Positions 25,613 through 56,064 of a DNA stretch of 64,000 nt are shown one piece after another. Every line of letters starts with the position of its first letter. Position 1 is the stretch's first letter. The DNA is from Apostichopus japonicus (taxonomy: Eukaryota > Echinodermata > Holothuroidea > Aspidochirotida > Stichopodidae): positions 4,504,001 through 4,568,000 of the forward strand of contig NC_092581.1 in NCBI RefSeq assembly GCF_037975245.1, given 5' to 3'. Position numbers and translations under genes: made by a program. The notes beneath the pieces were generated by a model that had not been told where the DNA came from, ran no database searches, and saw nothing but the letters and a program-made list of their open reading frames with translations.

Positions 25613-27301
25613 TTAATGAACATTAATCTCTATGTTCGGTAGATGTACCTCGTAACTCGTTAGGGGTTTTACACAGTGGTAATCGGGTATACCACAGTGT
25701 GGGCATCGTATACTCTGCGAAAATTCACTGAAATAGTGCATGCCCTTGGTGAGATCAAGCACCGGTTTACCGCAGCGTTTGCAACCAGCACGACCAGGGC
25801 AGCAGGGTGAGGCAGCAAAGATATCATATGAATATAGGGTGCCTAGCTGGTAATGGCTGCCATCCCAGCGTGACTTACATATACGACAAACGATTCGTTG
25901 AACACCTTCGAGGCATTTCATGCACACGGCTGCAAGGTACTGAGGGCCACGACTAGACTGGGAACATGGTATATTGATCCGTATAATGGCATCGCCGTAC
26001 CTGACCGGGGTGAGATAGAAGGTACCGTCGATTAACGGGTAACAATCAAACACAGGGAGGGTCTGGGAGCACTGCGAGCACCGCACCGTTTGGACGCCAT
26101 GAGCACTGACGGTCGAAAATATAAAAGAGCGTATCTCTTCACTCTCTGGCTGGATGTCGTCTTCCATCTGTATGTGGTAGGCATTCAATTTATGGGCAGG
26201 AAGAACTTGGAAGAACGTTGATAGATCTAGCCGTGGTAGAAAACCAGAAAAATGGTTCTTACCATTCATACCGGATGCCGAGTAATGAGTAACCATGTTG
26301 TCAGCAGCTTGAGGCATGTTCAGGTTTCCTGCATCGTTGACCCCTTGCCAGGTGTTGATACCGCTCAGGATGAAGTTATTATCTTGGTTTTGCCCTTGTG
26401 CACTCGCTGTGAATCTGTTTCCATCCTGCTTGGCAAAATCCTTGGAAGATTTTCGTTTATCTTCGTGCTGCAGCAGAGTGGTCTTGATATTGATCGAACC
26501 TGCGACACCAGATGGATCCGACTGCTTAGTCTTGCGGCCCCCACTAGCATGGCGTATCCGTTCTCTCTGCTGCTCGTGGATGATAGCCGTTGGAGTCATG
26601 GTGGAGTTAGTCGGGGTCTGGGTAGGAAATGGTGCTCGTGGCACAGATGGCATATTGCCTTGGCGACCTCCTGGGCTCACTGGGGGACTATGTCCATCTT
26701 TGCTCTCATTTGACGATGCTGATGTGTGGCGTTTCCTTCCTTTACCATTACCGTTCCCATTACCGCCAATCGAAGGTATGGCACTTCCATTAGACACCGA
26801 ATTAGACCTCCCAATACTTGGTTTGTCACTGGACTTTCGCCGCCTCCTCTGTTTACGTTCACCGTCCAATGCCTTGGGTGGTGGAATCCATTCCAAATCT
26901 TTACGCAGGTGTCCTTTCCCACATTTGCAAGAACAAGCCTTCCAGGCTAAATCATAGCCCTTCTTCGTCCACAAGTTCTGTTTTCTCTGTTTTTCAGACC
27001 AACTCCGAGCACGGCCAGACGAACGTAGATACGTTAGAACTTCTTCTTCCCACACTTCAAAACATGACTTGTGCATAAAACTGCCATATATACAACCTGG
27101 GTTGTTACACACAACCTTTTGCGCATCGTCCGGATCCAAAACATTGACAGAGTCTCCCTCGGTGCATCCAGATGGTACACAACATGGCTGATGGCTATCG
27201 TCGTCGTCGTCGTTGTTGTTTTCATCTCCATTTTGCTCTTCCATTTGCTGTCTAAATTCGTCCGCTTTTTGACGAGATTTCTCTTCCTTTGAGTAAGGCA
27301 T
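25613..27301 (-). CDS. HECA: Headcase protein homologue
   Basis: One uninterrupted frame of 562 codons ends in TAA. I start it at the ATG whose complement is 27299-27301, because the product begins MPYSKEE with a charged Lys/Glu stretch, whereas the 35 residues encoded upstream look like UTR. The N-terminal headcase module holds cysteines at about 40, 41, 46, 65, 70 and 80 and the block CSCKCGKGHLRKDLEWIPPP (about 123-142). A basic Ser-rich linker (about 145-345) follows. The C-terminal headcase domain has paired cysteines (CSQCSQ, CMKCLEG, CRICKSRWDGSHYQLGTLYS, CKRCGKP, CPHCGIPDYHC), consistent with zinc binding. In flies headcase maintains imaginal and progenitor cells and restrains TOR-dependent growth; human HECA affects the cell cycle. 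Fly headcase is extended by stop-codon readthrough, but here the frame downstream closes after nine codons. It is unusual in being intronless. Confidence 0.95.
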   Translation of the reverse strand: MPYSKEEKSRQKADEFRQQMEEQNGDENNNDDDDDSHQPCCVPSGCTEGDSVNVLDPDDAQKVVCNNPGCIYGSFMHKSCFEVWEEEVLTYLRSSGRARSWSEKQRKQNLWTKKGYDLAWKACSCKCGKGHLRKDLEWIPPPKALDGERKQRRRRKSSDKPSIGRSNSVSNGSAIPSIGGNGNGNGKGRKRHTSASSNESKDGHSPPVSPGGRQGNMPSVPRAPFPTQTPTNSTMTPTAIIHEQQRERIRHASGGRKTKQSDPSGVAGSINIKTTLLQHEDKRKSSKDFAKQDGNRFTASAQGQNQDNNFILSGINTWQGVNDAGNLNMPQAADNMVTHYSASGMNGKNHFSGFLPRLDLSTFFQVLPAHKLNAYHIQMEDDIQPESEEIRSFIFSTVSAHGVQTVRCSQCSQTLPVFDCYPLIDGTFYLTPVRYGDAIIRINIPCSQSSRGPQYLAAVCMKCLEGVQRIVCRICKSRWDGSHYQLGTLYSYDIFAASPCCPGRAGCKRCGKPVLDLTKGMHYFSEFSQSIRCPHCGIPDYHCVKPLTSYEVHLPNIEINVH

Positions 27302-28900
27302 GATTGTAAGAATATCGTTCTGATGGAGTAGAAATACAAATCCGCAAATTTTCTCGAAATAACAACCAGTATTTAGCAAAACAAGAGAACGTGAAGATCC
27401 GCACACACGCGGTTTTCAGGTTTGTTTTGATATTTTGGGCATGAGTAGAAGGCGGAGCGAGTGAAAAAGGCTTACCCAGTAATGAACTCAACATGACATG
27501 GTCGGTTAGCTTTCATTGGTTGAACGTCAAAATGTAAACACAAATTTGGTGTTTTGATTGGTTGAAAAGATGATTGATAATTTGCATATAGCGGATGTAC
27601 AGGCATCAACAACGGTTGCCCGTGAAACTCTGTACTAAAACTTGCGTATATGTAGCTAGCTAGCTGCACATATCATATTGAAAATCGCACGTACGTACAA
27701 AATTAACATATGCGACGTACAGTGCTTTTGCCGTGAAATATTTCATTTCATTATACCACGGGTACTGTAGAGATGTCCAACTGAGGTTAACAACTATGCA
27801 GTAATATCGGCCAAGGGTTCACAACGACGGTTAATATAGACAACAATTTGTATCTATACCTCATAAAACTATGTTAAAGTATGTACTGTTTGCGATAGTA
27901 CTTTGCTCTGAAAGATCATTTCATGCTCACATCATATCGGAGATGATGGTTGAAATGACGCGCTTAGTTTGCATATCTGACAGCGTGAATGTCCTCAATG
28001 ATTTTAGAATTTTGATTTAGATAGGTAATTGTGATATATCTTGTTTATAAGAGCATGGCTCCTTGGTATGAATAACATGACAGCTTGTTGTAGATATTAG
28101 GAGATGAATTCTGTAAGTGTAACAAACAGATGTCTGTCAATGCTGCCACCAAGTAACAGCAGAGTGAGTACAATCATACTCACTTTTTGTCCGGCATCTA
28201 TATATAGCTGGGCCATAATGCCTTACATATTTGTTTCGAGGAAGTATAAGATCTTTCGCAATTGTCTGCTTGTTCTGTAACTCTGTGTTTATGGTGGGTA
28301 AGTTTTTATTAATTTTTTCAACTTGAAGGTCGTCCGCGAAGCAAGGAGCAAGAGCGCTAGCAGCGACATAACAACCACTGATCTGTACAGATCAGTGATA
28401 ACAACAGACACTGAGGTGGCTGGATTAAAATCTTCCTGGAAATTCTAGAGGTCATCAAGAGGTGAACGAGGTCAGCTAAATATAGCGGACTTTTCTGCGG
28501 TTTTGAGACTGTTTAAAACTGCACGGACGGTGTGAGTTTTTTACGGAATGGTAACATACATTGGGGTCAATTGCGGGACATATTGCCGGCGATTGATAGA
28601 TTGTATCGATTGAGAGGCAGAATAATATACAGGACCTGCAACATGGGTTGTTTCATCAGGTAGCTACTATTCGAACTAGAAGTTTTTTTCGGACGAAACA
28701 GGTGACCCACTCTACCTCGGGCACCTTTAGTAGCCAGGAATTCTGAATTGGGCGGAGGCAGGCTGCAATATGTTAGGAGGGGTTAGGGGACAATATTCGC
28801 GTCCTGTAACGTGTGTACTTTCTTGAGCAAATGGTGGTGACAATATTAAGGCATCGGAAGGGGACGTTCGGTTGGTTGTGGGCAAGTTGGGAGCAGTAGG
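27302..28900. other. HECA upstream region
   Basis: HECA's 5' UTR and promoter should start here. No TATA box or first exon could be fixed. A short inverted repeat around ctgatctgtacagatcag lies at about 28379-28398. No other gene was seen. Confidence 0.4.
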
Positions 28901-37062: not shown

Positions 37063-40000
37063 TCAGCTCTTGTCAGAGGCCGCCTCTGCTTCTAGCATGT
37101 CATTAATTTCCTGTTCCCATTCCTCGTCACCCACCGGGGAATCCCCGACGACCTCGTAATCCTGGAAAAAAATAGAATTAGTTCGATTATCGATAAATGG
37201 ATTCAACCATTCCTCGGTAGTTTAATAGTTGTTTCATGTTTTTGTGAAAGCAAATTTGAAATTTGACAATTTCTAAATTAATAGCAAGTTTGTTTCGGTA
37301 TTGTTCTTTAAGATCAGCTAGCTTTCAATTTCTTTCAAAGGTCTTCTGTCTTGGTGGGGAAATATTTAAAAATAATTGCATGTTTAAATTTTTACCGGGG
37401 GAGGGGGAGGGGGGTTGGGGTTCGAGGAGGCTGCAAAGATACGTAGGCAAAACGATGCTGTTATATCGGACCTTTCAAAAGTATTTTCAACAACATTTGG
37501 GTAATGTCTGTCCTTGAAACGTAGTATAACTGACAAAAACCATCTCCAATTTCGCAAATTCTTTGAAATTAAACTTCAACAAACAGTTAACTCAATGAGC
37601 TGCACAATATTAAGTGATTTGGTAACTACATAGGAATCTTCATGGGAAATGCAGACTGCTACTCTTACTTTAATCTGTAATTGTTTGGAGGGAAAAAATT
37701 TGCATAAATGCATAATCAACTTTTTTTCCAAACTTACTGAAAGCTCTTGTTGTAGTTCTTTCTCCCATTCTGGAACTTCCTCTTCCTCTCCTGAAGGAAA
37801 AGAAAATAATTAAAACTAAAAAATTAACAACTATCTTTGTTTACCAAACCTCTCCTTTAGCATCTCTCACTTGGTAATCCAGTTACCACAAACACAATAT
37901 CTACACTGCTGCCATATATCTGATATCACATAGCAAATGAATATACAAGTGAACAAGATGTATAGCAGTTTGTTTTTTTTGTACATAAGAACCGTAGCAT
38001 TTTATGAGTGACCACATTCAGAGCCTTAAAAACTGCTACATACAGGTTTAACACTAAATTATTCCCCGATCTGTAGTGAACAGCCAAGTACATTAGCAGC
38101 GGGACTTAAAGATGGTAGCAAAATGGAGAGGGGTAGGGGGAGGGGACCACTTCTCAGCATAACCATGACAACTTTCAATGTCTCTCACCCACTCCCCCTC
38201 CCTCCCTCCCCCCCCCACTAATCCCACCCATGACCATGCTACTGATAAGGAATGGATTGTCATACTTTTCCATTTCATTTTCATTTTCAGATCTGACTCT
38301 TCCCTATTACGATTGTCCCTACGTGGACTTAGTTCATTTGATCATTTCCATCACAGCAACGTTTCAACAGGCTTCCTCTTCACACTGTGTTTTTTAATTG
38401 TATGTAAAAGTATGCTAATTTGCTATACCACGATGTGATGTAAAGGAGAGGCAGCCAATCAATGAATGACTCATTCGATGAATGCATGACCCCCATAAAC
38501 TTCCATGAAAGTGTATTTTATGGCGTCTAATGGGTATCACGCCGAGGAGATTTCTCATACAAATGAGTTTAGCAACCCCTATTCACGGAGCGAGTGCTGT
38601 TTGTCAACATTGGAAATTGAAACCGAAACATGGGAGTGGGCGATATGTTCCATTCATGAAGAGAAACACTTGAGACTTGGATATTAATCAGAACAGTTCA
38701 GTGACACTTTGCAGGAAGGTGGACATGCATTTGTGGTGACATTTTATAGACTTTCAACAGACATGAGACCAGACTGCATTCATGCCTTTGTTGCATCTCA
38801 CAGCAGAGCCTGACAGACATACCTCTCATCAAGCAGTATCTTTTTCTACAAGACCAATAAAATCCTATACGGTAAAGCCACAATAACCAAGACCTGTATT
38901 AGTTTTGTTCTTATTTTAGTTTTCAGCTAACATTTGTGCTGTGAAAATGATCTTCTATTATTTCCGGCATGAAAAATGATGCTACATTTTATGCAGTTAC
39001 TGCTAACACCCTCTAGCAGCACGGAAGACCATTTCATACCCAGGAAAATATATGGACTTTTATAAGGCAGGGTGGGGGGGTTCTGGGTACCAGACTGCCA
39101 CACACTGTGATCTATCAAACACAGAACAGTCCAGAAGCATGTTTTGCACCGGTGATGGTGTGTGCTTAGGTTGGACATCAAACTTACTGCAGCGTAATAA
39201 ACATATTAAATTCCCACGTTACAATGTGGGAATTTTTGTAACAATACCTGAAGACCTGATTAAAAGCTTTTGTATCCCTTTTGTTCAAAATACCTTCATT
39301 TGTGTCCTTGGAATCCATTCCTAACCGATTAACAGCTTTTGTATCCCTTTTTGTCCTAATTACAGTTTGTTCTAACTATCTTTTGTTCTAATTACCTTAA
39401 TTTGTGTCCTTGGAATCCATTCCTAACCATACTAACAGCTTTTGTATCCCTTTTGTCCAAATTACCGATTGTTCTAAACTACCTTTTGTTCTAATTACCT
39501 TCATTTGCAACCCTGAAGTCCATTCCTAACCTGACTAACAGCTTTTGTATCCCTTTTGTCCTAATTACCGATTGTTCTAAACTACCTTTTGTTCTAATTA
39601 CCTTCATTTGCGTCCTTGTAGTCCATTCCTAACCCGCCTAAACAGCTTTTGTATCCCTTTTGTCCTAATTACCGTTTGTTCTAACTACCTTTTGGTCTAA
39701 TTACCTTCATTTGTGTCCTTGGAGTCCATTCCTAACCTGACTAACAGCTTTTGTATCTCTTTTGTCCTAATTACCGTTTGTTCTAATTACCTTCATTAGC
39801 GTCCTTGGAATCCATTCCTAACTGTTCCATCCCTTTGAGTAGATCGTCTTTGTCGAGTACTGACTGGTAATCATCGCTGATGAATTCACCATCCCCCGCA
39901 CTCTCTCCTGGTAGTTCGCCACCAATGTCCTCCTCTGCTTGGTTTGCGTCCTCAATCTTCTTGTCTTCTTGATCTGAAAGTGTACAAGATCATAAAGTTT

Positions 40001-43000
40001 CAAGTTTCAAGTTTATTTTCCACTTTCCATATATATAAACAGTAACACAGTCAATGACTAATTTACTCACATTATGATGAAATAACAATAAACAAAGTGA
40101 AAAATATGCTATAATGGAAGTGGAGGAACCAGAAGTAAGTAGAGACTTTTCGAGTCTGGACCCTGTTAGGACCAAAAGGTAGAAGGACCAAAAACAAACA
40201 GAATGCAAACATGCATTGTGGTTTCGACGATGTAACATGAGCAGTTTTCTTTATGAATCTGACATAATGTATAGTGAGAGTGTGCACTGTACAACATACT
40301 TTATCTTGATAGAACAGTGAAAAGCAGTGTGATGTGACAAAAAATAAATTCACAATGACACAGGCTGCCCTCAAATGACCATTGACCTCAACAACAGGCT
40401 TCTTGTACTAAATGTGATAGTTACATCAACATACTATATGTGACATCTGTCCTTGTTGAAATATTCTGCAAAAGCATGGTTTTCACAATTTGACCCCTGG
40501 TGAACTCAAATGACCATTGACACAACATTAGGTTTCTTGTACTCAATGTGGTACAATTACGTACCAAATATGTGATGCCCAACTTTCCAAAAATACAGAA
40601 ACATTGGTTATAACAATAATATGTAATATTTACTATCACACAAGAAAGTTATCTACATTATCAGTGGATACAATTATTATCATGGAAGCATTCATATTTC
40701 ATAGGTCTTATGTCTCCATATATTTATGTCTACATAAATGTAGGGCCAAACTTAGATTGATGGGATGATCAAGAGGGCAGTACACCAGAATGGATCAGAG
40801 ATATGATAAGAAGACAGGGTTGCTGTGGTGTCTTCCCTTCATTCCCCAGTGTTTCATTTATAATGGGACGACAAGGTCTTGAACGACATTTCAACAACTG
40901 CGATGAAAACACTGTCTACCAATACAAGGATGAATGGCACTCCATGTGTTGATTATAAATATTCTATTGTACATGCATTAATGTTAATGACGGGTTGGTT
41001 ACGACAAATTAATATCACACAGAGCCTTTTACCTCCAAGAGCATTAACTAGAAAGATGGGTGTTTTGTATTTCTTTGGAAATGTGTGAACAACCATGGCC
41101 ATGATCAATAATATTAAATGAAACCCTACTAGTGAGGTTGTTCTACATATATGTAACATATATGTTAGCACTTCAAGAAATGGCCATAACACTTGATACC
41201 ACCCAAAGAAGTATTTATCACCGTTAAGTGATGTTGGAGAGGAGGGAGGGGAGATGGAGAGGGGAAGGGGAAGGGGGAGGGGAAGGGGAAGGGGGAGGGG
41301 AAGGGGAGGCAATGGGAAAGTGATAGGCTAGTGATGGGATAAGTAGGGGTGGTGAAGGGTGATCAGATGTTGAGGTTGCTTGGGGATCAATTTCATCCCT
41401 CTCCCTGGTGTAAAGACAAAAAAACATTTGAGCAATATGTAAGTTTTGGGATATTATTTCTAAACTGAAGTTTTGTCTTCTTCAGCTTTTCTGGTAGACT
41501 TCTCTTGCCTCTACAAACTTGTGACCTTCCCCGTGACGATGTGACTGCTTACCTTGTTAAGAGGACTCTGAATCGGAACCCGACCTGGAGTTCTGTTCAT
41601 TCTACAAATTTGTGACCTTCCCCCTGATGATGTGACTGTTTACCTTGTTCAGAGGTCTCTGAATCAGAACCCGACCTGGAGTTCTGTCCACTCTACAAAC
41701 TTGTGACCTTCCCCCTGATGATGTGACTGCTTACCTTGTTTAGAGGTCTCTGAATCGGAACCCGACCTGGAGTTCTGTTCACTTTTGCTCTCGGACCCCG
41801 AGGATGCGGCTAGACTGGTCAGCTGTGAGGACTGCTTGATCAAGGAAACTCGGTAAAAGTAATTTTTCCAAAAGTGTTCTTCAGAAATCCTGTCAAAACA
41901 GAAACAAATTGCTGTATATTTACTTCCCCTCCGATTTGCTACGGAACATTACTTGTAAAAATTATCCATGTGTGCAAGAAAGAAGAAGAAAATAAAATTT
42001 CAACATAGAATATCAAAAAAAGACAGACAAATTTACTTGACATGAGCTAGATCTATATATTACATGCATGTGATTTACAGCCAGGAAATCACTTATAAAA
42101 GACAAAGATGGAATGCTAGCATTTCTCACTTGCCTAAATTATCCTGTTTTTAGTGAGGTTGACACAGTAAGGAACTGCTTTTCCTTAATTTCGGTAGTTC
42201 ACATATTCATCAAGGACTTCTTTCCATTTTTCATTATCTTTCAGTTTGTTAAGAAAACTTGGATGGTCAGTGTTTTTCAGCTCGTCTAACAACTTGTTCG
42301 ATTCTTAGTGAAATATACAAATTTTGGGAGAAAATGTCATTTTAAACTGAGTTACCTTCCTACCGGTATTGGTTGAGATGACTAAGGCCACAGGTGTGCA
42401 CATTGCTGGTCCCTAATAACAAGTGCAAATATTACTGGGGATCCACAGAGTTTTATTAGTTATATTTAATTAGAATTTTTTATTAGTGCAAACTGCAGAA
42501 GCCTACGAATATCAGCCGTTAACCAACTGAAACAATTAATTAACTAATAAACTGAAAGGAACAGCATGAAACTTGGCCAGTTGTACACAGAGGGCCAAGT
42601 AGAGGGCCAATCTAAGTTTTCCAACATAACATATAGATGATGCACATCAATATCTCTCTGATCATTTTCATAGTTTTGACTAGTGTAGCACCCCCATAGA
42701 CTGAACATAAAACCTCAGTGTGTCTCAGGAGATACATTTTGTGGCCTCACTCTCTCCCCCCCCCCCCCTTCACTACTTCCCTAAATTTAGGTCATCAAGT
42801 TAGGTACCATCTTGTCCATGTTGACAAATGGAACAAAAAAACAAAGCAAGATATGACATTGGACGAGACATTTTTGGGTTACAGCACTTACTTAGAGGGC
42901 ACCAATGAAAATCTCATTTTCTGCAAGTTAGGATCTTCCTGGAGAGTTGCCATAGCAACGGGAAATGAAGTAGTAAAGTCAAAGTGGAACTGAACGCCTG

Positions 43001-46000
43001 CCGGAGGGTTCCTAAGAAAGTTTCTTTTGTCCTGTAAATGAAAAATTAGAAAGATAGTTGTTAATTTAACGGCTGTCGTTATTTACAAGTACCTGGTTGT
43101 GTTCCCTCTGTCATAATCTCCCCATTTCACATTTTGGTTTCAACACTAACTTCACCCAGGATACTAGGGCATTAAATGTCAATATATAAACACCTTCTTC
43201 AACCACATCCCATATGCAAAGTTGTGTCTAGGCTAGGTACTTCTAACAGGCACGGATCCATGCTGGTGTGCACAGACTTGCATGTCGACCTAAGCTATAG
43301 CCTAAATATGCCTCAGAATACACGATTTAATTAAAGGTATAACATTTTTGCTCAATGAGGAACCTCCGATGACTCCCCCCCCTCCCCTTCTGTGAGAATT
43401 TGTTGCAACTACCCCAGTACCAATATCTGGATCTGCTAGTCTACCTTGGTATTTTGATACCTTTATAGACTAACTTGCAGATAATGGGTTTGAATAAAGC
43501 ATGTACAAAACTTTTTTGTCAATAGTGTATATTAAGTCCCTGCTTCCTTAACATTTTCCTTGTCAAACTATGCTGTGTTCTTTTCCTGTCTAGACTAACA
43601 GTGGTCCCATGAATTTCTAAGAAGTAAAATTGCCCAATCTATATACGAATCAGCAGAGAGAGGCTGTGGATGCAACGCCTTCGCACAATTCAACCTCATG
43701 GGCTCAACATTCAGGAAGGACATGACTAACATTTCCTCTGCCCCCCTCCCCCCTTGTTTCCCCCCCCCATCACTTCTCATAGCTCTCTTCCACCCTTTTT
43801 TCTCCACACCTTTCTGTCTTTGTCCTCTCCAGTTTATTCCCTACCCCCTTCCCTTAATCCTCTCTTTGTCCCTCCAGGCCTCCACTGTTTATCTCCTACC
43901 TCTCCTCTTCCCCTGTTGGTTTCTTTCTTTCTTCTCTCCATCCCTTGTCTACTAATCCCCTTACATCTATTTGTGTTCACCATGCTCATTAACCTGGCTG
44001 TATTCGGTGCATGTTTTTGTCTCTTCTGTTACTGTTATTTGTCATTTAGCCTTTGAAGAAGATCCTGCTAGGATCGAAATGTCAGGCCAACTTACTTTTA
44101 CACATTCTCCTACACAGGCTCTCTAGTGGATAAGCAGTTTGCTCACAGTTTTATTTTATTCGAGTTTTATTTCAATCTATATATACACTTATGTGGTTAA
44201 TGATTAAACTGCACACTCACTGATTTTTTTTTATTTTGCAATTAACTGCAGATTGATTGACAAGTAGTCAACAGCAACAAACCTACATTTATCAAATATA
44301 AGGAAACAAATCACTTTGTAACAGGAAGGAACTTATCTGTCAGATTCAGTCGGAAATATTGTTTACAGATCTTTGTTTTAAAATATTTCCGCTATACTGC
44401 TCTCGGCTGAACTCTTGGATGTAAGCAACGTTGTGTTCATTGTAAATTTCAGGAATGAGATGCCTCATGCAGTATTACAATCAGTTCTTTATGACACATT
44501 TAAAGCAGTATTGATGCCATTTTATGATTTTAACTTATAAATATTATAATAACTACGTACACAGTAAATATATTCCCTGATGCGCGCACATCTATAAGCT
44601 AAAACTGCAGTATGCAGGGGGTTGAGAATGTAGAGAGGCTGGGGGGGGGGGGGGATTAGAGGGTTATGTACCCCCTAGCAATAATTTGCCTGGAATTGAA
44701 CAACATGAAAGACTGAAATACAGGCCGAAGAAATTTCAGAGCATTTCAACTTTTGCACTTGTATTATTGTGCTTGAAAATTGTAACAGGGTTAACAACAG
44801 ATATATTTGGAAATGTTCCAGCTTTCAAGGACTTCAGCCTGGACCCACCCCTGTGCTCTAGTCCAATTGTGGGCCCCCTGAACCCCCAGCCAATAACAGT
44901 TTACCTACCAATAACCTCCCAATAGCCTCCTATGACACTGGTACCTACAGTACGACCAATCCATCCACACAACTTACAAGTGATATATGCAAATTTACAG
45001 TGATGAGCCTCCCACGTCAATAAAACTTGCGACTATTTTGCCAGTGAACATCATTGAGCTTTTGTCATTCAACAAAAAGGCCTGTGGTACTAGAGTAACT
45101 AGACCCCCAAAATACATTATGAACCAGTTCAACTACAGATAAACCTGACGGCCCTGGTGACAGTCAAATTAAAACCTTTCTTGTTTTGGGTCCCATGGAT
45201 TCAGAGACTATCATTAAGCAAACTTACTTGAGACAGGGCCAAAATTTGCTCTTTCATCTGTTTTTCTTCGTTGTAACCGACCCACGGAGGTACGGCCGCC
45301 TCCGACCTCTTAGAATGTTTCTCTTGGATGAATTTCTCCTGTTCCTTCTGGAAATCCCCGACCAGAGTCTGAAGTCACGAGATACATGCAAATTGGATCT
45401 TAATATTTCTGACACGTAAAATAGGTCTTGCGTACATACAAATTGGAACATAATCTCTAATTTAAGTAGACTAATTTAATATGGCGCCATTATTTTTTAG
45501 AGCTTGCCAAATAAGGGACATCAAGGAGAAAATAGATAGCTGGAACTCACATGATGCTTGTGGGTAAAATGAAGAGCAAAAACAAGCTAGAAATATGGAA
45601 GCTTAGACTGTTCAAGATCATCTCCATCCAGGGGGGTATAATGTGATGTTGACTACAGTGTTAAAGTTCAGTCATTTATATTCATTTTCCTTAATGCAAT
45701 TATGTTTGATAAGACAAAAAAACAAAATCAAAATACTGATACATTGTTTAAACTTATAATTCATTAATTAACTGAAGTAGTTAACCAATAACCACATGAT
45801 TTGAGGTGCCAAAGGAATGATATCGGTCTGTCTGTGTAAATCAATTAAACTTGGAATAAATCAGACATTATCATTTTTACTTTGATTGTTGTAGTCATGT
45901 TAAAGGCATTGAAGACTCGCCCCAAACCGTGTGCGGCCATCTGAAAAAGTTAACTTTCCGTTGCTTTTGCAAGTGAAGTTCTTCTTTTGTCACTACAAAA

Positions 46001-48285
46001 TGCAGACAGTAATGAAACGTGATACCTTGTTATCTTTAGCTGGACCTGAGATGTCCACCACTGTATCGTTTGTATACTGTGCGTTGGGTACTGACCGCAG
46101 CTATATTTACTGACTGTTGACTAGTGTCTAATTACTGACGGTAGGCAAGCTGTGTGTGTATTTTCTGGGATCGATGGTGGTGTCTAACACTTCTGTTACA
46201 CCTCATTCAAAACTAGGTTAAGATTACCGGCATTAGACGTTTCTTTTTGTGCGAGTCTTCACACCCTTTAACATTGTGTACAACATGCAGTCAACATACT
46301 GCAAAAATGGATGGTTAGACACAAAATGTTGCTTTTTATAAAAGTGAAAAATAATTTACCACTCTCTCCTCGACGGTCTTCTGTATCACTGATGCTGTTT
46401 TGGTGGCTGTTTCACTCACTCTCTGTGAGCCAACTTTAGCAAAGTTGTAAAGGTAATCTGAAGGAAATTAAGCCAAAAATTACTTAAAGTTTGGTTAGTC
46501 AGTGGAAAATTACCACTTAATTTCTTTTGTTACTACTCACTAATGAGGGGCAAGTGGAAAGTTCTACAGCAAACATGCAACTCTACATAACAGGAGGGTC
46601 AGAACTAGAGATTTCTTACTTTAAAACTGATTTGCAATAATGGTTTAAATGAATTATGTGGTTGGTTATATAGTACATGTGTGCCTAGATACATTTCACT
46701 TCACTGAAGAACTGAACCACATGATTTGAGGGACCAAAGGCTTGGTATTAGTCTGTCTGTGTTAATCATGTAAATTTGGAATAAATCAGAATAAAGAGTG
46801 ATGGATTGTGGTTTAGTTAGTTTTAACTTGGATTGTTGTAGTCATGTTAACATTATGTTCAACTAAAGTCAAAATACTGCAAAAAATTGGATGATCAAAC
46901 ACACAATGGTGCTTTTCTTTTTGTCAAAATAGAGGTTTTTTACTTTGTAACTTATTTGCAATAATGATTTTAATGTTAAGTAGTGGTTGAATGTACAGCA
47001 AATGTGTGCCAAGACACATTTCAGCTAAAAGAGATTGACATAAAATATTGTCAAATAATGCAGTAACATTAGTAACCTTTATTACCAATATTAAATTTAT
47101 ATTACAATAAAATTTCTTTGATGATATTGTTGTCTAAACAAGAAGTAACTGCTGCGTACGGACGGATCTAGTGCCATTCCGCCATAGGTACAAACCGCCA
47201 TGGCGGAAAGGTACGAAACCTGTGGCGGAAAGGTAAATTTTAGGAATGGATTTTAGGCTGGTGTACAGGAACATATCGGTGAAACTTTCTTTGAATCGCG
47301 TGGAAGGATAGGTACACCGTCTTCAAATGTGACAGTTCGCTGGATAGACTGAATTTTAGTTAGGGCTTAGACAAGATCGAGGAATTGATACACAGTCTTT
47401 AATGTAAGGATGGTTGAATATTCATTTGTAAGTTTGTAAGAGTTGATACACTGTCTATTAATATATCACATAGAAATATAGGTACTAACTTAGAATCCGT
47501 ACCATTCGACCCTACTTCCTAACCCCTAACCCTACTTCCTAACCCTATTCCCTACTTCCTAACCCTAATTCCTAACCCCTAACTCTACTCCCTAACCCTA
47601 TTTCCTAGCCCCTAACCTTATTCTGACGATTCGAAGAACAGTAAGCTTTCCCATTCATATGGTACAGATTCTAAAGTTAGGCCGAAATAAAAAATAAATA
47701 TATATTGCAGTAACATGGCGAAATGACACGGCCCCCATCTGCTCCAGTAGACAGCTAGGCCTAGTAAGTAGTAGTGTGTTGGTTTTGAGAATTTGATTTG
47801 CATTATTTATACTAGAACAGGGGTCCCAACACCTTCTCCCTCTCCAGATTTAACTATCAAAGTACAACCAACACAACACTAACTTAGTGGAAATATACTA
47901 CGAATTGGATCAAGGTGACATAGGCATAGGGAAAGGAAATACAGGCTGATAACGATAATAACAACAAAACTGCATGTCGGGGCCACTACTGCTAATGTGC
48001 TATTTCACCAGCAGGGGTTCTGAATGGGGAATGGGTAACAGCAAAATCAGAAAGTCACACAGATCAAGTTACACATTACTCACTGCCAATATCTTTGGCG
48101 GCATTGACTGCTTTGTCAGCATTTAGATTGGGTGAATCTTTCTCCGACTGTTGTTCATCTTCCTTGATTTCGTCGGTTCCTGCGTCACCTTTAGTTTCCT
48201 TTCCTACGGATTCTTCCGTTGATTCAGGGACGTTTTCGTCGACAGCCGATTTACTTCCACCCCACCAACTTGACAAAACCTCCAT
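37063..48285 (-). CDS. SYAP1: Synapse-associated protein 1 (BSD-domain protein)
   Basis: Eight exons: 48084-48285, 46360-46457, 45228-45368, 42892-43031, 41735-41889, 39791-39973, 37738-37790 and 37063-37161. Phases agree at each join, giving 1071 nt and 356 aa (human SYAP1 352). I chose the ATG at 48283-48285 because the product then starts [10 protein letters not shown], like the family N-terminus. Family blocks follow: YLYNFAKVG (about 69-77), [10 protein letters not shown] and [10 protein letters not shown] in exon 3, then the BSD domain (about 148-205, [11 protein letters not shown] and the signature Phe-Trp in [12 protein letters not shown]). The tail holds WEKELQQEL and DYEVV. SYAP1 supports mTORC2-dependent Akt1 activation and is found at synapses and Golgi. 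A family segment of about nine residues between exons 2 and 3 (human GKIDGIIDK region) is absent or lies in an unseen microexon. The 3' ends of exons 5 and 6 are tandemly copied into the following introns. Confidence 0.93.
39266..39826 (-). repeat. 103-bp minisatellite copying SYAP1 exon 6 end and 5' splice site
   Basis: The word ccattcctaac recurs at 39315, 39417, 39520, 39623, 39726 and 39812, giving spacings of 102, 103, 103, 103 and 86. The copy at 39812 is the real coding end of SYAP1 exon 6 (minus strand: last 28-30 coding bases, then GGTAATT at the donor, 39791/39790). Each intronic copy repeats the exon end and a GGTAATT or GGTATTT donor-like site followed by about 75 bp of intron. 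Confidence 0.93.
40195..40585. repeat. Dispersed repeat, copy 2 (pair at 2615-3005)
   Basis: This lies inside the SYAP1 intron between exons 5 and 6 and aligns over about 390 bp, same orientation, with 2615-3005. The family is unidentified. Confidence 0.7.
41236..41311 (+). repeat. G-rich minisatellite, potential G-quadruplex
   Basis: Tandem blocks of the form ggggaaggggaaggg with runs of 3-5 G lie in the SYAP1 intron between exons 5 and 6. The G-rich strand is opposite to the SYAP1 transcript, so the pre-mRNA carries the C-rich version. The peptide read from it is a low-complexity Ser/Pro artefact. Confidence 0.85.
41499..41770 (-). repeat. 91-bp triplication of SYAP1 exon 5 end and 5' splice site
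   Basis: The word cgacctgg recurs at 41581, 41672 and 41763, a 91-bp period. The copy at 41735-41770 is the genuine end of exon 5 (donor 41735/41734, GTAAGC). The other two copies lie downstream in the intron and keep the coding-like end (..CAGAG..CTCT..AACAAG) and an intact GTAAGC or GTAAAC donor. Reading on from the first donor in the coding frame meets a TGA in the next unit. Confidence 0.93.
43738..43970 (+). repeat. Pyrimidine-rich low-complexity tract in SYAP1 intron
   Basis: About 230 bp, mostly C and T on the plus strand, within the intron between exons 3 and 4. The overlapping open frames are compositional artefacts. Confidence 0.8.
44051..44090 (+). other. GAAGAA-hairpin-GAAA motif
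   Basis: A perfect six-base-pair hairpin (GATCCT/AGGATC with a three-base loop, 44061-44075) is preceded by tgaagaa and followed by GAAA. This arrangement is reminiscent of hammerhead-like cores at Penelope-like element ends, but the catalytic CTGATGA box is altered. It lies at the end of the pyrimidine tract and may mark a retroelement remnant. Confidence 0.35.
45904..46267 (+). mobile_element. TTAA-flanked MITE, family 1, intact
   Basis: A 364-bp element has imperfect inverted ends (AGGCATTGAAGACTCGC at left, GCGAGTCTTCACACCCT at right) and TTAA on both sides (45900-45903 and 46268-46271). TTAA duplication is typical of piggyBac-type transposition. It sits in the SYAP1 intron between exons 2 and 3. 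It aligns over its full length with the inverted copy at 58560-58922 (363 bp). It has no coding capacity. Confidence 0.9.
47165..47480. mobile_element. Copy of the CATTCCGCC-ended TIR family in SYAP1 intron 1
   Basis: The sequence begins ctagtgccattccgccat and contains a local palindrome around ccgccatggcgg. It aligns in inverted orientation with the right half of 14110-14715. A weak right terminus (gtaccattcg) lies at about 47500, just before the telomere-like repeat. The class is unassigned. Confidence 0.6.
47514..47622 (+). repeat. Interstitial telomere-like (CCCTAA) degenerate array
   Basis: About 110 bp are built from ccctaa-related words (cctaacccctaaccctacttcc and variants) interrupted by ttcc and ttcct. 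It lies in the SYAP1 intron between exons 1 and 2. The units are spaced by non-telomeric bases, so this is more likely a degenerate minisatellite or a repair scar than a functional telomere. Confidence 0.7.
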
Positions 48286-48773
48286 TTTGAACTTTACTCT
48301 CAAAACAAGTAGTGTGCTGTTGTCAAATAAACGAATGAAATGAATAGAACAATGGCCTGAAATTGAAGTTTCAAGTTATGACGTTGTACTTATGTTATAG
48401 CTAGGCTAGTATTACTATACAGTTACACTGTAGGCCCGTTTATTGTTTGTTCCATCAGTTAGCTCAAAGCAATCGTGATATAAAGTGTTGCGGTATTAGT
48501 ACATACATTTTACAACGAAGTGAGTGCAGAAAGTTGTGTTTACAAAATATTGAGGGAAGTGACGTCAGAAAAATCTTGAAAAGTCTAAAAAAAAATTTGA
48601 GGAAATTTATGTTTATTTATTGGTCCGTTTAAGTTTACCTATTTTAATTTGGTATATATTAAAATATATCTTCAGTCATTTTCATCTCCATTGATCGAAG
48701 ATTTTTCTCGACTGAAGCTAAAATCAAGCTATCACCTCAAGTATCTGGTCTCTTACCTGCTTGACCACCGAAA
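48286..48773. promoter_or_regulatory. Candidate bidirectional SYAP1/RPS4 promoter interval
   Basis: The SYAP1 start codon (minus) and the candidate RPS4 start (plus, 48774) are only 488 bp apart and divergent. A TATA-like run (ggtatatattaaaatatat) lies at 48651-48669 for the plus direction. A pyrimidine-rich ctcttacc at about 48750, shortly before the candidate ATG, could be the TOP-like start typical of ribosomal protein mRNAs. Transcription start sites are not known. Confidence 0.45.
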
Positions 48774-48776
48774 ATG
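48774..48776 (+). CDS. RPS4: Candidate RPS4 first coding exon (initiator codon only)
   Basis: The ATG at 48774-48776 sits in the context accgaaaATGGTAAATG and is followed directly by a GTAAAT donor. Joined to 49676 it keeps the frame and would give Met-Arg-Gly-Pro-Lys-Lys, lacking the Ala usual at position 2. No ATGGCN-GT exon was found elsewhere between 48300 and 49675. This is a tentative placement. Confidence 0.35.
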
Positions 48777-49675
48777 GTAAATGTTGACAATACGTTTCTG
48801 ATATTATCCTTAAAATCTGATGCAATCCTATGCCTTTGGCCGATGATTTCAATAAGATAGCAGAACAACTTTCATATATTGAATAATTTGTCGATATATT
48901 GTGATTTCTTTCTTTTTTTGTTGGTAAAAACTGGACATTACTATCGTTGTACTTGCTGAACACACACCTACTCTCAGCCTAACCAACACAGCCTAACTAC
49001 TGTTGAATTTGGCCTAACACAACCTTGTTAGGCACATTACTTAGTCTATTTGACATTTTTAAACGTATACCATTCACTGCAATGTGTGACTAACGCACAA
49101 TATTGCAACATCGTAAGTCAACGAGATTATCCATTCATCCAAGCTGTTTCTGGTCGGAAACAACATTGCCCTATACTGAAGGCTTCATAATAGAAAACAT
49201 GTAGGCCTAGGCCTTTGATGTATAAATATGGTATTGCACCAGGTTAAACTAACTAACAGTAACAACTGAACAATGAAGCAATTTAAGCTGTTAATTGCAT
49301 GTGATGTGATTGAGATTATGGATAGTATCAGCTGATAGTCACTCTCTAACCTCTCTCGATGTGTCAAGCTATGCTAGAATTACAGAAGGTGTTCCCTAAG
49401 AGTCGTTAGTGTACATAACCTTTATCACTGTATAGAATGTATCACGAAAATATCTAGTAATGAATCGATTGACCTTTTAACCTATTGCACAATACTTCTC
49501 CATGTGTAATCCAAAACCAGCTTACTAAATGATCTGGCTGCCATGTACCTCGTAGTCATGCTGTCACTTTTATCCTAGGCCTATAGTATTGACCATGATG
49601 TAATATCATTTTGGTAAAACATTCTGAACAGTCATTTTGCATTGAACTTATGAAATTGTTTTTTTCCTTTTTCAG

Positions 49676-52600
49676 CGTGGACCTAAAAAGCATTTGAAGC
49701 GGCTTGCTGCGCCCAAGCATTGGATGCTGGACAAACTGTCTGGTACCTTTGTAAGTATTCATTGTGAAAGACCTTTGTGTGTTAACTCATCACCTAGAGC
49801 AAGACTTTTCCATGATTAAGCCACTGTAAACCTGTTTAAATCATCATTTCCAAAGTACTGTTAGATATGCCTACTTCTAGGTTACAATAGGCCGACTAAT
49901 GGTTCCCGAATTTGCATACTTTCAGTTGGTATCTTTCCTTGTCATCCTGTCAGTAGTATAGACCTCATAGATAAAGGTAATTATGTGGTTGTATTTATTA
50001 ATTAGTATGTTCCATAATGGCAACCGTTCAGAGTTCACAGCCAACAATTCTGCTTTCTCCTGCCAGGCACCAAGACCATCTCAAGGTCCTCACAAACTGC
50101 GAGAATGCCTCCCCTTAGTCATTTTCCTGCGAAATAGGCTGAAGTATGCCCTGACTGCTGATGAAGTGAAGAAGATCACGATGCAGAGACTCATTAAGGT
50201 TGATGGCAAAGTCCGCACAGACATCACCTTTCCTACGGGCTTTATGGGTATGTAATATCTGTGTCATAAGCAGAATGAGAAGTAAGGATTGCACGTCTAT
50301 CATCCTCACATTTTCTATTTCCGTTACATGTATTTTAATGTTTTTCCCCTCTGTACCTCTGTTTGGGTAGCTTTAGCAATTTTAATACCCTGTATGGTAA
50401 CTTCATTGCAGCTTGGTAGGTGAAAACTTATTAAAAATATTTATTTCATTTCATTCCATGGGTCATTTCATTTATGGGTCAAATCAGAGATGGCTGTTGC
50501 TGCACTTATTATGGATAGTACAAACAATACAAAATAATGATTACAATGCTTTCCCATAATATATCTGCAAGTTGTGCAACTCATTAAGTTGCTATTTCAT
50601 GCTGCGATTCAGCATGAGGAAGGGGCTTTGATGCCAATTTTTTACCAAAGTAACCATGTTAGAGCTGTCAGGGTTTTATACTTTAATTAAAAGTATAAAG
50701 TTCTTACACCTAAACAAATTTCAGGGCTCTAGCTTTTCTCAATATTAGTTTATGAAGTTATAAAGTTGCTCCAATGTACATCTTTGACAGCCAATAACTC
50801 AAAACGTGTCATGTTTAAAAAAAAAAAAAAAAATTGGAGGAGATATAGTACCACCCTGATTGTACAAAAATATTCAGGAGAGTGTTTTGCCTTATTTTGA
50901 AATGAAAAATCCTCAAAGTTTGGGATTTTTACCCCCCCCAAAAAAATCGTTTTTGCCTGTTTTGATGTTCCACATGTTTTGAGCCTAATGAGCAGTAATG
51001 AATGGCCTGTATCGAAGGCATGTCAGGTTTACTGTATCTGAGATGTTCTTATATGGCCGAAAGTAAATCCTTTTCAAAATGGTCGCTTCTTTGGATACCT
51101 TACCCCAAAGTGGCATTACCCACTGAAGGAATACTTCATGTCTAGCTCTGTTCATTGTTTTTGTACTATTTTGTACTAAATTTGGATTTTTTTTTGGGGG
51201 GGGGGGGTTGGGGGGGGATGTGAGATTCATTGCTGCTTTAGTAAGTAAAGCGATAAGTCTGGATCTCTTCAAACATCAATGTCGCTTTTCACAACAATAC
51301 TATATAAACGTATAAAATTGATCGAGTTAAACTATACAACGATTGTAAGTGGACAATTTGTGGCACATTTGCAAGTTTGATTTTGGTGAACAAAACCTCT
51401 ATTTTTAGAACATTGGATTATAGAGATGTTATTTTTTTGTTATTAATTTTACTAATTGCTGATTATTGTTTGTCTCATTAGATGTCATCTCCATTGAAAG
51501 GACAGGTGAGCACTTCAGACTGGTGTACGATGTGAAGGGTCGATTTATTGTGCACAGAATCACAGAAGAAGAAGCCAAGGTTTGTATTGTTGCTACTATT
51601 TTTAAGCTATGTGATGTTATTGATCATTTATGGACAAAATTAAAGCCATTGAATGCATGGTTACTTTAAAAGCAAATGATACAGAAAGATGAAAATGGCA
51701 AGATGGAAATGTTTTCTTTGTTTCATAGTTGTTCTTAGTGTATGCAAATCCTTTTATAATATGTTCTTAAAGCATTCTGTTGTGTGAGGTTGGAAATGTG
51801 TGTGATGACTAGTTAGCTGTGTGGTGGAATGCTAGTGTCAGTTCCCAGAAGTTAGATTTTACGTGGTATAATGTGCGGTTGCTGTCTTCATGCTAATCCT
51901 AAAAGCTCGTGTAAAATTTAAACCCAAGTTAAGAGTTTCTAATATGCTTTTAAACATATTATAACATCAGACCAAATTAGAACTGCACATGTAGAAAGCT
52001 GTTGGAAATCCTTCAATATGAGTGCTGTTTAATTTCTTTACTTGTTTTGTTTTTACTTGTTGAAAATCGATTGAATTGATTTCCTTCCATGGCCAAAGAA
52101 ACCTTAACAATGTGGTTTTAGCTGGTCAGTTTTTTTAATTAGAATGATGCTTCCATCGTGATCAATTTGTGAATAAATTGAGCTGTAATGAATGGCCTGT
52201 ATCGAAGGCATGTCAGGTTTTTACCGTATCTGAAATGCTCTTATATGGCCGAAAGTGAATCCTTCAAAATGGTCGCTTCTTTAGAAAACCTTACCCCAAA
52301 GTGGCATTACCCACTGAAGGAATATTTCATGCCTAGCTCTCAGGGGCGTAGCGAGCGGGGGGGTGTGGGGGGGTGTCACACCCCCCCAATAATTTGGTCG
52401 CTGTCGGCAAATTTTGGGTCTGTCGGCAAAAGGAGAAAAGGTGAAGAGAGCGGAAGGGGAAGAAAGAAGGAAAGCTGAATAGAGAAAAGGAGAACGGGAG
52501 CTTCTTCCGTGCCAAATTTGACTTAAAATATGCACCAGATTGCATCTAAGGACGTTTCAAAACTAAAAATTTTCCAAAGGGGAGGGGTAGACCCCCTACC

Positions 52601-55600
52601 CTTAGACCCCTCCCCCATTTCAGTCACCACTTCCAGATCCGTCGGCAAATCAAATTTGACTTAAAATATGCACCAGATTGCATCTAAGGACGTTTCAAAA
52701 CTAAATATTTTCCAAAGGGGAGGGGGACGCCCCCTCCCCTTAGACCCCGCCCCCATTTCGGTCACCACTTCCAGATCCGTCGTCAAATCAAATTTGACTT
52801 AAAATATCCACCAGATTGCATCCAAGGACGTTTCAAAACTAAAAATTTTCCAAAGGGGAGGGAGACACCCCCTCCCCTTAGACCCCTCCCGTCGGCAAAT
52901 CAAATTCTCCACACCCCCCCAACAAAAACCCCTTCGCTACGCCCCTGCTAGCTCTATTCATTGTTTTTGTACTAAATTGGGTTTTTTTTTTGCTTGCTTG
53001 ATATAAATGTTGATATTGATACAAGAACCTTGCTCTCAACAACGATAGACATGTGGCAAGAAATCACCAAGGTCTATTGGCAGTGTTCTCTCAGTTATTG
53101 TTAGTTGTGTTCTTAATTTTGCAGTACAAGCTTTGCAAAGTGAAGAAACTCTGGACTGGAGTCAAAGGAGTACCCCAGTTGAGCACCCATGATGCCAGGA
53201 CCATCAGGTACCCAGACCCATCAGTAAAGTCCAACGACACCGTCAAGGTGGACATCGCCACAGGAAACATCACAGATTACATCAAGTTTGAAAGTGGTGA
53301 GTTTGATACATGTGACATATATGTGACCATTAACTTGTTCTTTAGTAGGAGAGATAGTGGATGGGTGAGCTGGTGGTTCATTGTAATTGTACCTTCATTG
53401 CTTACCTCCCCTGACCCAACCCCCCCCCCCCCCAAGAAAAAAAATGAATATTTCACAACAACCAACAAAGAAAGTTGGTCTTCTCCAAATAAAAAAAAAT
53501 TAAAAGTACAGTGGTTTGGTTCAATGTTCAGATTTGCATTCAATTTACTAGTTACCCTACCTTTATATAACATAAAAATGTGATGTTGCCTTGTTTTCCG
53601 CTACTTTTCATAGAGAGCTTCTTATCCTGTATATATTCATTCTTTCTTTCTTATCCAACAGGAAACCTTTGCATGATCACTGGGGGTCGTAACCTGGGTC
53701 GAGTCGGCACTCTCACCCACAGGGAGCGTCACCCTGGTTCCTTCGACATCTGTCATCTCAAGGATTCACAGAGTGAGTAGATAATAATTGTCAATGGATG
53801 GCTGGAAGAGTTTCGCATCTTTCAGTTTCAGATTCAAACAGGCAAGCAGAAATGCCGTTAAGAAGAACAGTATCCCAAGGTGGATGTGGAATAAACAGCA
53901 GATTTATAAGAACAATGCAATCTGTATGGGATTGGCATTATAAATCTCGGTGTCTTTGCAGACACTGTAAAAAGTATCCTTTCACCTCTGAGTCAACATC
54001 AGCTGCTTTTCAAATGGAACTGTTTTCTACCCTGTCCTAACCCTCCCTCACCCTCCCATTTTGGTTCTGATGCTTTGCATCCATCGGAACCTATGCAGTC
54101 AAGTTGGCATATGTGTGTGTATGTGATGCTCTATCTTGTAAACACAGTATCTCAAGAAGGAAATATCTGATTGATGTCATACTTGGTCTATATGTTGGTC
54201 ATGGTCAGTACATGATACCTATTGTGCTGTCTTCATGCTAATCCTAAATGCTCTTGTAAAATTTTAAACACAAGTTTTTAAGATGCTGTTAAACATATAA
54301 CATCAGACCAAATTAAAACTGCACATGTAGAAAGCTTTTGAAAATCCTTCAATATGAGTGCTGATGTATTTCTTTTCTTCTTTTGTTTGTACTTGTTGAA
54401 AATCGATTGAATTTGTTTTCTTCCATGGCCAAAGAAACCTTAACAATGTGGTTTTAGCTGGTCAGTTTTCGAATTAGAATGATGCTTCCATCGTGATCAA
54501 TTTGTGAATAAATTGAGCAGTTATGAATGGCCTGTATCGAAGGCATGTCAGGTTTACTGTATCTGAGATGTTCTTATATGGCCGAAAGTGAATCCTTTTC
54601 AAACTGGTCGCTTCTTTAGAAAACCTTACCCCAAAGTAGCATTACCCACTGAAGGAATATTTCATGCCTAGCTCTGTTCATTGTTTTTGTACTATTTTGC
54701 CTAATTGGTAGGCTGTTTTTTTTGGGGGGAGTTAAGCAGCACTGCTGCTTTAGTAAGTAAAGCGGTAAGTCTGAAACTGTAAACATTGATAATATCAAAT
54801 GAACCTTATACAAATTGGTATGTTTATCCTTTGAAACCAGTGTTCTGGTTTTTGTGTGTGTATTTGATGCCCTACCTTGTAAACACGGTATCTCAAGAAG
54901 GAAATATCTGAGTGATGTCATACTTGGCATATATGTTGGTCAGGGTTAGTAGATGATCCCTATTGTGTTTGGTGGGGCTATTATGCATATTAATAAGTGG
55001 GGTGGGGCTTAACATGAAATTCTTAAAATATCAATATCCCTTCAACAGTATGTCCAATGTAGTTCATACTTGGTATGATGATGAACTTAGTATGTACATG
55101 TTCTTTGCAACAACTTTTACCTTGTTAGTATTCATGAGTGGGTGGGGCTTAATGGGAAATTTGCAACAACAACTTTTGCCTCTGTTTTGTCAAAAACGGC
55201 TTGTAAACATCATATCTCAACTAACACAAGTTGAACCATTGTCATACTTGATGGACAGATGCACTATGCTGAGTAGAATTGCCCTATTGGTTTTGGTTCA
55301 CATCTTGTGATGTAAAATGGTAGTCGGGGCTTACCATAAAAAATATAAAAAATGTCAATATCTCTGCAACGGTATGTCCGATTTAGAATGGTGGTTTTAC
55401 TACATTGTATGTACATGTTCTTTGCAACAACAATTTTTTGGGGCTGGGTGGGCCCAAATTTTATTTCCACCTCCAATGCATTTTGGTAAACATACTTTGG
55501 GCCAGAATTTGTGGTGCCCCCCTTCTTGGGGGTGTAAATTTTGGGGGGCAAATATATTTTTGAGCTAAATATTTTTGGGACCATTTAGGCACAACATTTT

Positions 55601-56064
55601 ATTATACTGTCACATAATAGGCTTTCTTAACATGATAACTGAGTCCTGGTACCTTCCATCACATGTTGCCACATTAGTCAATAAATAACCCTCTTCATTT
55701 TGGTGTGCACAAGTTCATGAATATTACCATGTATGGCTTACCGCACTATGAATATGTTCAGACTTCGGAACCACTAAACACTTTTGTTTTCTGGTTCAAT
55801 CAATCCATTGGGATTATTGAATACTCAGTTCTCTTAGGTCTCTTGCATGATGTTTAAAGCTCTTTTTCCTTTTGGAATGTCTTATACGAACATTTTATAT
55901 TGGTGTCTTGTTTGTTCTTTGCAGACCATACTTTCAGCACCCGGCTGAGTAATGTGTTCATCATCGGCAAAGGACAGAAACCTTACATCTCGTTGCCGAG
56001 AGGAAAGGGCATCAGGCTCACCATCATGGAGGAGCGGGAGAAACGCTTGGCACAGAAACAGTGA
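49676..56064 (+). CDS. RPS4: 40S ribosomal protein S4 (eS4), coding exons 2-7
   Basis: Six exons: 49676-49750, 50067-50247, 51482-51579, 53125-53296, 53662-53772 and 55925-56064, joined in consistent phase to 777 nt (258 aa plus stop). Every junction is GT..AG. The product starts [20 protein letters not shown] and includes the S4 RNA-binding region ([15 protein letters not shown]), the KOW-like segment ([16 protein letters not shown]) and the near-terminal [12 protein letters not shown] block. Human RPS4X is 263 aa, so only the initiator region is missing. eS4 binds 18S rRNA in the small subunit. AATAAA signals at 56162-56167 and 56185-56190 predict a short 3' UTR. Introns carry a triplicated repeat and one hAT-like insertion, but the coding sequence is intact. 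Invertebrates normally have a single copy; the vertebrate X/Y split does not apply. Confidence 0.96.
50990..51265 (+). repeat. RPS4 intron repeat, copy 1 (short)
   Basis: About 275 bp in the intron between the exons at 50067-50247 and 51482-51579. It is shared with copies 2 and 3 in later introns (taatgaatggcctgtatcg, gcattacccactgaaggaat). It contains the undisturbed sequence tctagctctgttcattg, which is the empty site of the insertion in copy 2. Confidence 0.85.
51875..52985 (+). repeat. RPS4 intron repeat, copy 2, interrupted by a transposon
   Basis: The repeat runs 51875-52340, is broken by the element 52341-52947, and resumes at 52948-52985. The two parts join to give the same order as copies 1 and 3. 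Confidence 0.85.
52341..52947. mobile_element. hAT-like MITE in RPS4 intron (TSD ctagctct)
   Basis: A 607-bp element starts CAGGGGCGTAGCG and ends CGCTACGCCCCTG, a perfect 13-bp inverted repeat. It is flanked by perfect 8-bp duplications ctagctct (52333-52340 and 52948-52955). Repeat copies 1 and 3 in neighbouring introns have the site once. Inside are about three tandem copies of a ~139-bp unit (52507-52900) containing aaatttgacttaaaatat and a G-run/C-run hairpin (ccaaaggggaggggg / cccctcccctta). It is non-coding. Confidence 0.96.
53419..53435 (+). repeat. Poly-C tract in RPS4 intron
   Basis: A C-rich run of about 17 bases (aacccccccccccccc) lies between the exons at 53125-53296 and 53662-53772. 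The open frame running through it is the exon plus intron read-through. Confidence 0.8.
54215..54775 (+). repeat. RPS4 intron repeat, copy 3 (long, uninterrupted)
   Basis: About 560 bp in the last intron align with copy 2 from gtcttcatgctaatcctaa through to the tagtaagtaaagcg block, which also ends copy 1. It contains the intact site cctagctctgttcattg. Around it, the phrase tatctcaagaaggaaatatctga occurs twice (about 54150 and 54890) with its flanks, a second smaller duplication. Confidence 0.85.
54961..55330. repeat. Degenerate repeat with 'gggtggggctta' phrases in RPS4 last intron
   Basis: The phrase gtggggctta followed by a poorly conserved A-rich stretch, then caatatc and cttggtatgatg-like words, recurs about every 150-190 bp. 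The family is unrecognised. No coding capacity. Confidence 0.45.

Follow-up and report, generated by a model that had tools for sequence, protein, structure and literature searches.

The closest described counterparts of the locus analysed here come from lancelets. According to PMC3087553, lancelet globin genes carry minisatellite-like tandem duplications of exon-intron boundaries, called 'mirages' after an earlier case in Adh3. Many of the units contain splice signals, and BflGb6 has six copies in one haplotype and three in another. The genes named as having mirages there and in PMC3902484 include Adh3, globins, troponin C and PGBD5. Splicing appears to be regular, as suggested by the Adh3 data and by globin RT-PCR (PMC3087553); the troponin C mirage is reported not to disturb splicing, and for PGBD5 the authors of PMC3902484 infer the same.

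Human CBS provides two further comparisons, both from PMC2630376. A 31-bp VNTR at c.1444_1467+7 occurs in 16-21 copies, and since these coordinates comprise 24 exonic and 7 intronic bases, a donor should be present in each copy. The 844ins68 variant duplicates the junction of intron 7 and exon 8, and of the resulting pair of sites one is strongly favoured in splicing. The rules by which donors compete are the subject of work on DOK7 (PMC5585400).

The window analysed here is a 64,000-nucleotide stretch of genomic DNA whose gene content (RPS4, a SYNCRIP-like gene, Headcase and SYAP1) looks animal. SYAP1, on the minus strand, was identified by its BSD domain (E 8.8e-16) and by a match to PDB 1x3a, 'Synapse associated protein 1' (E 1.1e-35). 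Two of its exons end in tandem arrays that span the donor. The features concerned are as follows, with a slash marking the exon end.

37063..48285, minus strand: SYAP1 gene, from its start codon to its stop; eight exons located, with perhaps a further small one overlooked between exons 2 and 3
41735..41889, minus strand: SYAP1 exon 5 (first base 41889, last base 41735), with a phase-1 end
41693..41783, minus strand: exon 5 array, copy 1; donor AAG/GTAAGC, +1 G at 41734; equal to the three-copy consensus
41602..41692, minus strand: exon 5 array, copy 2, intronic; donor AAG/GTAAAC, +1 G at 41643; five changes from the consensus
41511..41601, minus strand: exon 5 array, copy 3, intronic; donor AAG/GTAAGC, +1 G at 41552; five changes from the consensus, including a TAA in the exon frame
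39791..39973, minus strand: SYAP1 exon 6; donor AAG/GTAATT, +1 G at 39790
39277..39793, minus strand: exon 6 array (TRF range), boundary-spanning, period about 103; its exon-derived part reaches about 30 nt deeper into exon 6

The exon 5 array consists of the last 49 nt of exon 5 and 42 nt of intron 5, in three head-to-tail copies on the minus strand (41511-41783). TRF reported it at 41509-41783 with a period of 91, 3.0 copies, 91% matches, no indels and a score of 480. Together with the in-register copies this bears out the proposal of the earlier note that the end of exon 5 and its donor are repeated three times at a 91-bp period; the span given there, 41499-41770, is displaced from the array by about 13 bases. 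Pairwise identity is 90-95% (5, 5 and 9 differences in 91 positions), and the donor begins with GTAA in all three copies. Twenty order-1 Markov sequences of window length yielded six TRF rows scoring at least 50, none of them with a period of at least 50, so the array is not a product of chance. By eye, a putative microhomology of 2 bp, AG, lies at its breakpoint. The intronic copies had been described as coding-like; that description suits copy 2, whose exon frame contains no stop, but not copy 3, where the same frame contains a TAA. Their donors, GTAAGC or GTAAAC, had also been called working; a donor-like sequence is kept in each copy, and 'candidate donor' is as far as the letters go.

The exon 6 array contains six copies of the donor, with the +1 G at 39790, 39704, 39601, 39498, 39395 and 39293. 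Five read AAG/GTAATT and the last reads AAG/GTATTT, so that GTA starts all six. TRF found 16-bp sub-repeats nested within the array, which fit repeated slippage. The earlier claim that two neighbouring SYAP1 exons underwent the same kind of duplication thus stands insofar as both carry independent donor-spanning tandem repeats, while the exon 6 array, with its six donors, is no triplication. The two units are unrelated, as had been stated: when one copy of each was compared with the window by BLAST (E up to 0.01), each matched its own array only. A common origin of the two arrays was rejected because there was no cross-match between the units in this search, and a dispersed element as their source because no further copy of either unit lies within the window at E 0.01.

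By eye, the exon 6 array has a higher-order repeat structure, its 16-bp sub-repeats being of the GGTA(A/G)TTAG type, with three in copies 2-5, two in copy 1 and one in copy 6. Donor-like words thereby recur inside the unit too. Among 57 intron-derived positions only one distinguishes copies 3 and 4, a pattern like that of partial homogenisation.

On their sequence, both SYAP1 arrays have the anatomy of mirages: the exon-intron boundary lies within the unit, and the extra copies are intronic and keep splice signals. The lancelet mirages of Adh3, BflGb6 and BflGb9 (PMC3087553) are alike in having boundary-spanning units, copies outside the authentic exon, and splice signals kept in many copies. 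The BflGb6 units are 81-100% identical, and in BflGb9 it is the 3' exon boundary that is duplicated, which is also the case in SYAP1. Unit lengths differ, being 10-72, 150-160 and 157 bp in those lancelet genes versus 91 and about 103 bp in SYAP1. Lancelet PGBD5 repeats the pattern of the two SYAP1 arrays in having two consecutive exons that each carry an array overlapping a splice site, one of these being an imperfect triplication of 108 bp (3 x 108) that abuts a 5' splice site; the exon 3 array of PGBD5 is unlike SYAP1 at 2 x 60 bp, and copy numbers in the other genome version are 7 and 6 (PMC3902484). The CBS VNTR is further removed, with a short unit in many copies that is polymorphic in humans, and 844ins68 is a single duplication (PMC2630376). 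Matched on anatomy, the SYAP1 arrays are a further case of this published class of structure.

We favour, with good confidence, the reading that each array is a boundary-straddling minisatellite, a mirage of the lancelet literature, whose extra donors are inert or feed decay. Ordinary slippage during replication, or repair at short microhomology, would have expanded a 91-bp segment into three tandem copies, which would then have drifted. The exon presumably keeps its original end, with the donor at 41734 in use, so that the two extra copies leave with the intron. The exon 6 array would have arisen separately through another such event, and neither array needs a function. Exon 5 encodes residues 195-245 of the joined protein, where the BSD domain finishes and a Ser/Glu-rich linker follows; the BSD match stops at residue 215, and the repeated part of the exon starts at residue 230. 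Tolerance of the array would follow from the position of the extra copies, entirely within the intron, and from the fact that the end of the exon codes for the linker beyond the BSD domain. Of the two explanations offered in the earlier note, tolerance of redundant donors is the one supported here, and by analogy it agrees with how lancelet structures of this kind have been interpreted in print.

Divergence within the exon 5 array is even, with variation in 5 of 49 exon-derived columns and 4 of 42 intron-derived columns (Fisher P 1.0), so there is no sign that donor or coding sequence has been specially kept, as for neutral copies. Conservation centred on the donor was likewise not seen in either array. 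In the exon 5 array one of nine donor columns varies, compared with 8 of the remaining 82 (Fisher P 1.0); in the exon 6 array one of nine donor columns (counted by eye from the alignment) varies, compared with 9 of 30 other columns derived from the exon (P 0.40). Donor columns being not significantly less variable than the rest, the other explanation in the earlier note, a local mutational mechanism centred on donor sites, gains no support from the copies themselves. Loss of the donor between copies, which the earlier note named as grounds for refutation, was not found either: every copy retains the GT and the greater part of the donor, which is no surprise in exon 5 copies only 5-10% diverged, although donor 2 does not have the +5 G. 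Eight changes in the exon 5 array are private to one copy, none of them in copy 1 and four each in copies 2 and 3, and one further site differs in all three. The probability that copy 1 would have none of the eight is 0.039, a post hoc figure that assumes equal rates. This light evidence fits a copy 1 that may be constrained and in use while copies 2 and 3 drift.

The reading frame shows what use of the other donors would entail. If donor 1 is used in both exon 5 and exon 6, SYAP1 reads without interruption from exon 4 as far as its natural stop codon. The period of 91 is not a multiple of three, so true read-through of exon 5 donor 1 meets a TGA at 41666-41664, in copy 2 and before donor 2, after adding 23 residues; read-through of exon 6 donor 1 ends two codons beyond it. 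Pairing exon 5 donors 1-3 with exon 6 donors 1, 2 and 6, we computed eight alternative pairs out of 17 possible, and in all eight a premature stop falls 134-847 nt upstream of the last exon junction. The extra donors would thus truncate SYAP1 or reduce its output and would not extend the protein. Under the favoured reading, donor 1 would make the SYAP1 protein, and any use of donor 2 or 3 would bring a frameshift and an early stop, hence no full-length SYAP1; such transcripts would probably be degraded.

That every computed alternative stops upstream of the last junction also suits a regulatory role, in which donors 2 and 3, and the later donors of exon 6, would be used to make frameshifted, degraded transcripts and the array would tune SYAP1 dosage like a poison exon. 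Donors 1 and 3 of exon 5 are moreover the same 9-mer and score 11.18 each under a donor frequency matrix. Set against this are the drift of the intronic copies, the missing +5 G of donor 2 and the normal splicing reported for published mirages (PMC3087553), and we regard a dosage role as very unlikely. The equality of donors 1 and 3 is nevertheless a point against the minisatellite reading as well, since donor strength alone leaves a preference for donor 1 unexplained; if the gene works, some other factor must favour that donor. Of two equal donors the intron-proximal one was often preferred in classical work, which would favour donor 3 here. The natural guess is that exon context or nearness to the exon 5 acceptor may favour donor 1.

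The copied AG and GT signals might also turn array copies into exons or introns, making the arrays intermediates in intron or exon gain. Such a fate has been proposed for the lancelet globin mirages (PMC3087553), and it has neighbours elsewhere: human paralogs in which new introns can arise from tandem repeats located at exon-intron boundaries (PMC2812944), intron gain through a boundary-crossing tandem duplication in potato (PMC4974935), and 5 of 31 novel Drosophila intron positions assigned to tandem duplication (PMC2891723). These resemble SYAP1 in having tandem units at or across a boundary that are able to change splicing, but the repeats there are linked to new introns and none is indicated in SYAP1, whose exon 4-8 model is open throughout without any new intron. 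The PGBD5 gene prediction likewise had an exon within the 108-bp repeats; it was unconfirmed by transcripts, and the authors omitted it at the cost of an apparent 13-residue deletion (PMC3902484). Within the exon 5 array, the 15 bases before any AG hold at most 9 pyrimidines, versus 9-14 at seven SYAP1 acceptors, a crude count in which the ranges touch at 9 and the windows for the acceptors of exons 2, 3 and 8 are misplaced by one to three bases. The reading frame speaks against gain as well, since copy 3 is interrupted by a stop when read in the frame of the exon and a period of 91 changes the frame. A gain intermediate is accordingly rated highly improbable, and a cassette-exon or intron-gain reading of the copies was set aside, no AG in the array being preceded by a long pyrimidine tract by the same crude count.

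Repeats are hard to assemble, and the copy number of the PGBD5 arrays differs between two versions of the lancelet genome (PMC3902484), so copies added in error during assembly were considered. Resequencing upheld the PGBD5 arrays (PMC3902484), and in SYAP1 copies 2 and 3 each have private changes, which shows that the array is not a single unit written repeatedly. We give an artefact practically no credence. The copy number of the exon 5 array could be allele-specific.

A process centred on 5' splice sites, acting for example through nascent RNA or R-loops, might instead duplicate donors throughout this genome, and two adjacent donors of SYAP1 each bearing an array is what would bring it to mind. 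We examined it by random placement of the four arrays of period at least 91 in the window, leaving out shorter-period rows, against 19 donors and 21 acceptors. Besides SYAP1 the site list drew on the following genes.

7762-12816, minus strand: hnRNP Q/SYNCRIP-like gene
25616-27415, minus strand: Headcase gene, 600-codon open frame
49676-56061, plus strand: RPS4

Outside SYAP1 the sites were placed, approximately, where tblastn matches end, and for Headcase the two ends of the open frame (25616, 27415) stand in for donor and acceptor. Absent from the list are the 5' SYNCRIP-like exons, the first RPS4 exon, the other Headcase exons and the possible small SYAP1 exon. All of the placement figures are based on approximate exon ends and are post hoc, the test having been chosen after the result was seen.

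For at least two of the four arrays to lie on a donor in the window, P was 0.106-0.116 with whole arrays and 0.0034-0.0066 with founding units. When the 21 acceptors were added to the 19 donors these values became 0.20-0.21 and 0.015-0.026. Within the SYAP1 span alone, P was 0.0014 for both founding units lying on donors and 0.042 for both whole arrays. With an array at 47509-47622 included, P was 0.114 for donors in the window and 0.058 in the SYAP1 span. The founding-unit values speak for a donor-centred process; they are also an observation against the minisatellite reading, as two of four founding units on donors is above uniform placement. The whole-array value of about 0.11 speaks the other way.

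Older traces of such a process were sought as local similarity around each site. A nearby copy exceeded the 95th percentile of 1500 control points at two of 19 donors and at none of 21 acceptors, and the two donors are those of the already-known arrays; the remaining 17 donors fall below that percentile for nearby old copies. A second set of 1000 control points, outside both arrays, had a 95th percentile of 44, versus 54. Published mirages, furthermore, span acceptors as well as donors (PMC3087553), and a donor-centred process is in our judgement very improbable.

If the host lies outside the lancelets, SYAP1 widens the range of mirages found in print, though other reports may exist; if it is a lancelet, SYAP1 is one more mirage gene. 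In either case the two arrays present series of equal donors (two identical 9-mers among three in exon 5, five among six in exon 6) and offer a real-gene setting for the choice among equal 5' splice sites, in which by frame only the first gives the full protein. A broader picture is a speculative one to which we assign a low probability: that the host is not a lancelet and has a genome rich in donor-spanning arrays, that mirages are spread more widely among animals, and that the equal SYAP1 donors are natural experiments in 5' splice-site choice whose alternatives feed decay.

Other repeats were seen elsewhere in the window. At 243-1448 TRF found 6.6 copies of a 163-bp unit with 99% matches, followed by related copies at a period of 125, and no exon was located nearby. 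An RPS4 intron, between exons ending at about 51577 and starting at about 53122, holds 2.7 copies of a 138-bp unit with 94% matches (52513-52890, TRF), and this array includes a GC-rich inverted stretch (GGGGAGGGGGACACCCCCTCCCC). The 47509-47622 array, in SYAP1 intron 1, is a degenerate CCTAACCCTA-like repeat that resembles decayed telomere-type sequence. SYAP1 (minus strand) and RPS4 (plus strand) are arranged head to head, with about 1.4 kb (48285-49676) from the SYAP1 start codon to the first RPS4 exon found, and a promoter region shared by the two genes is possible.
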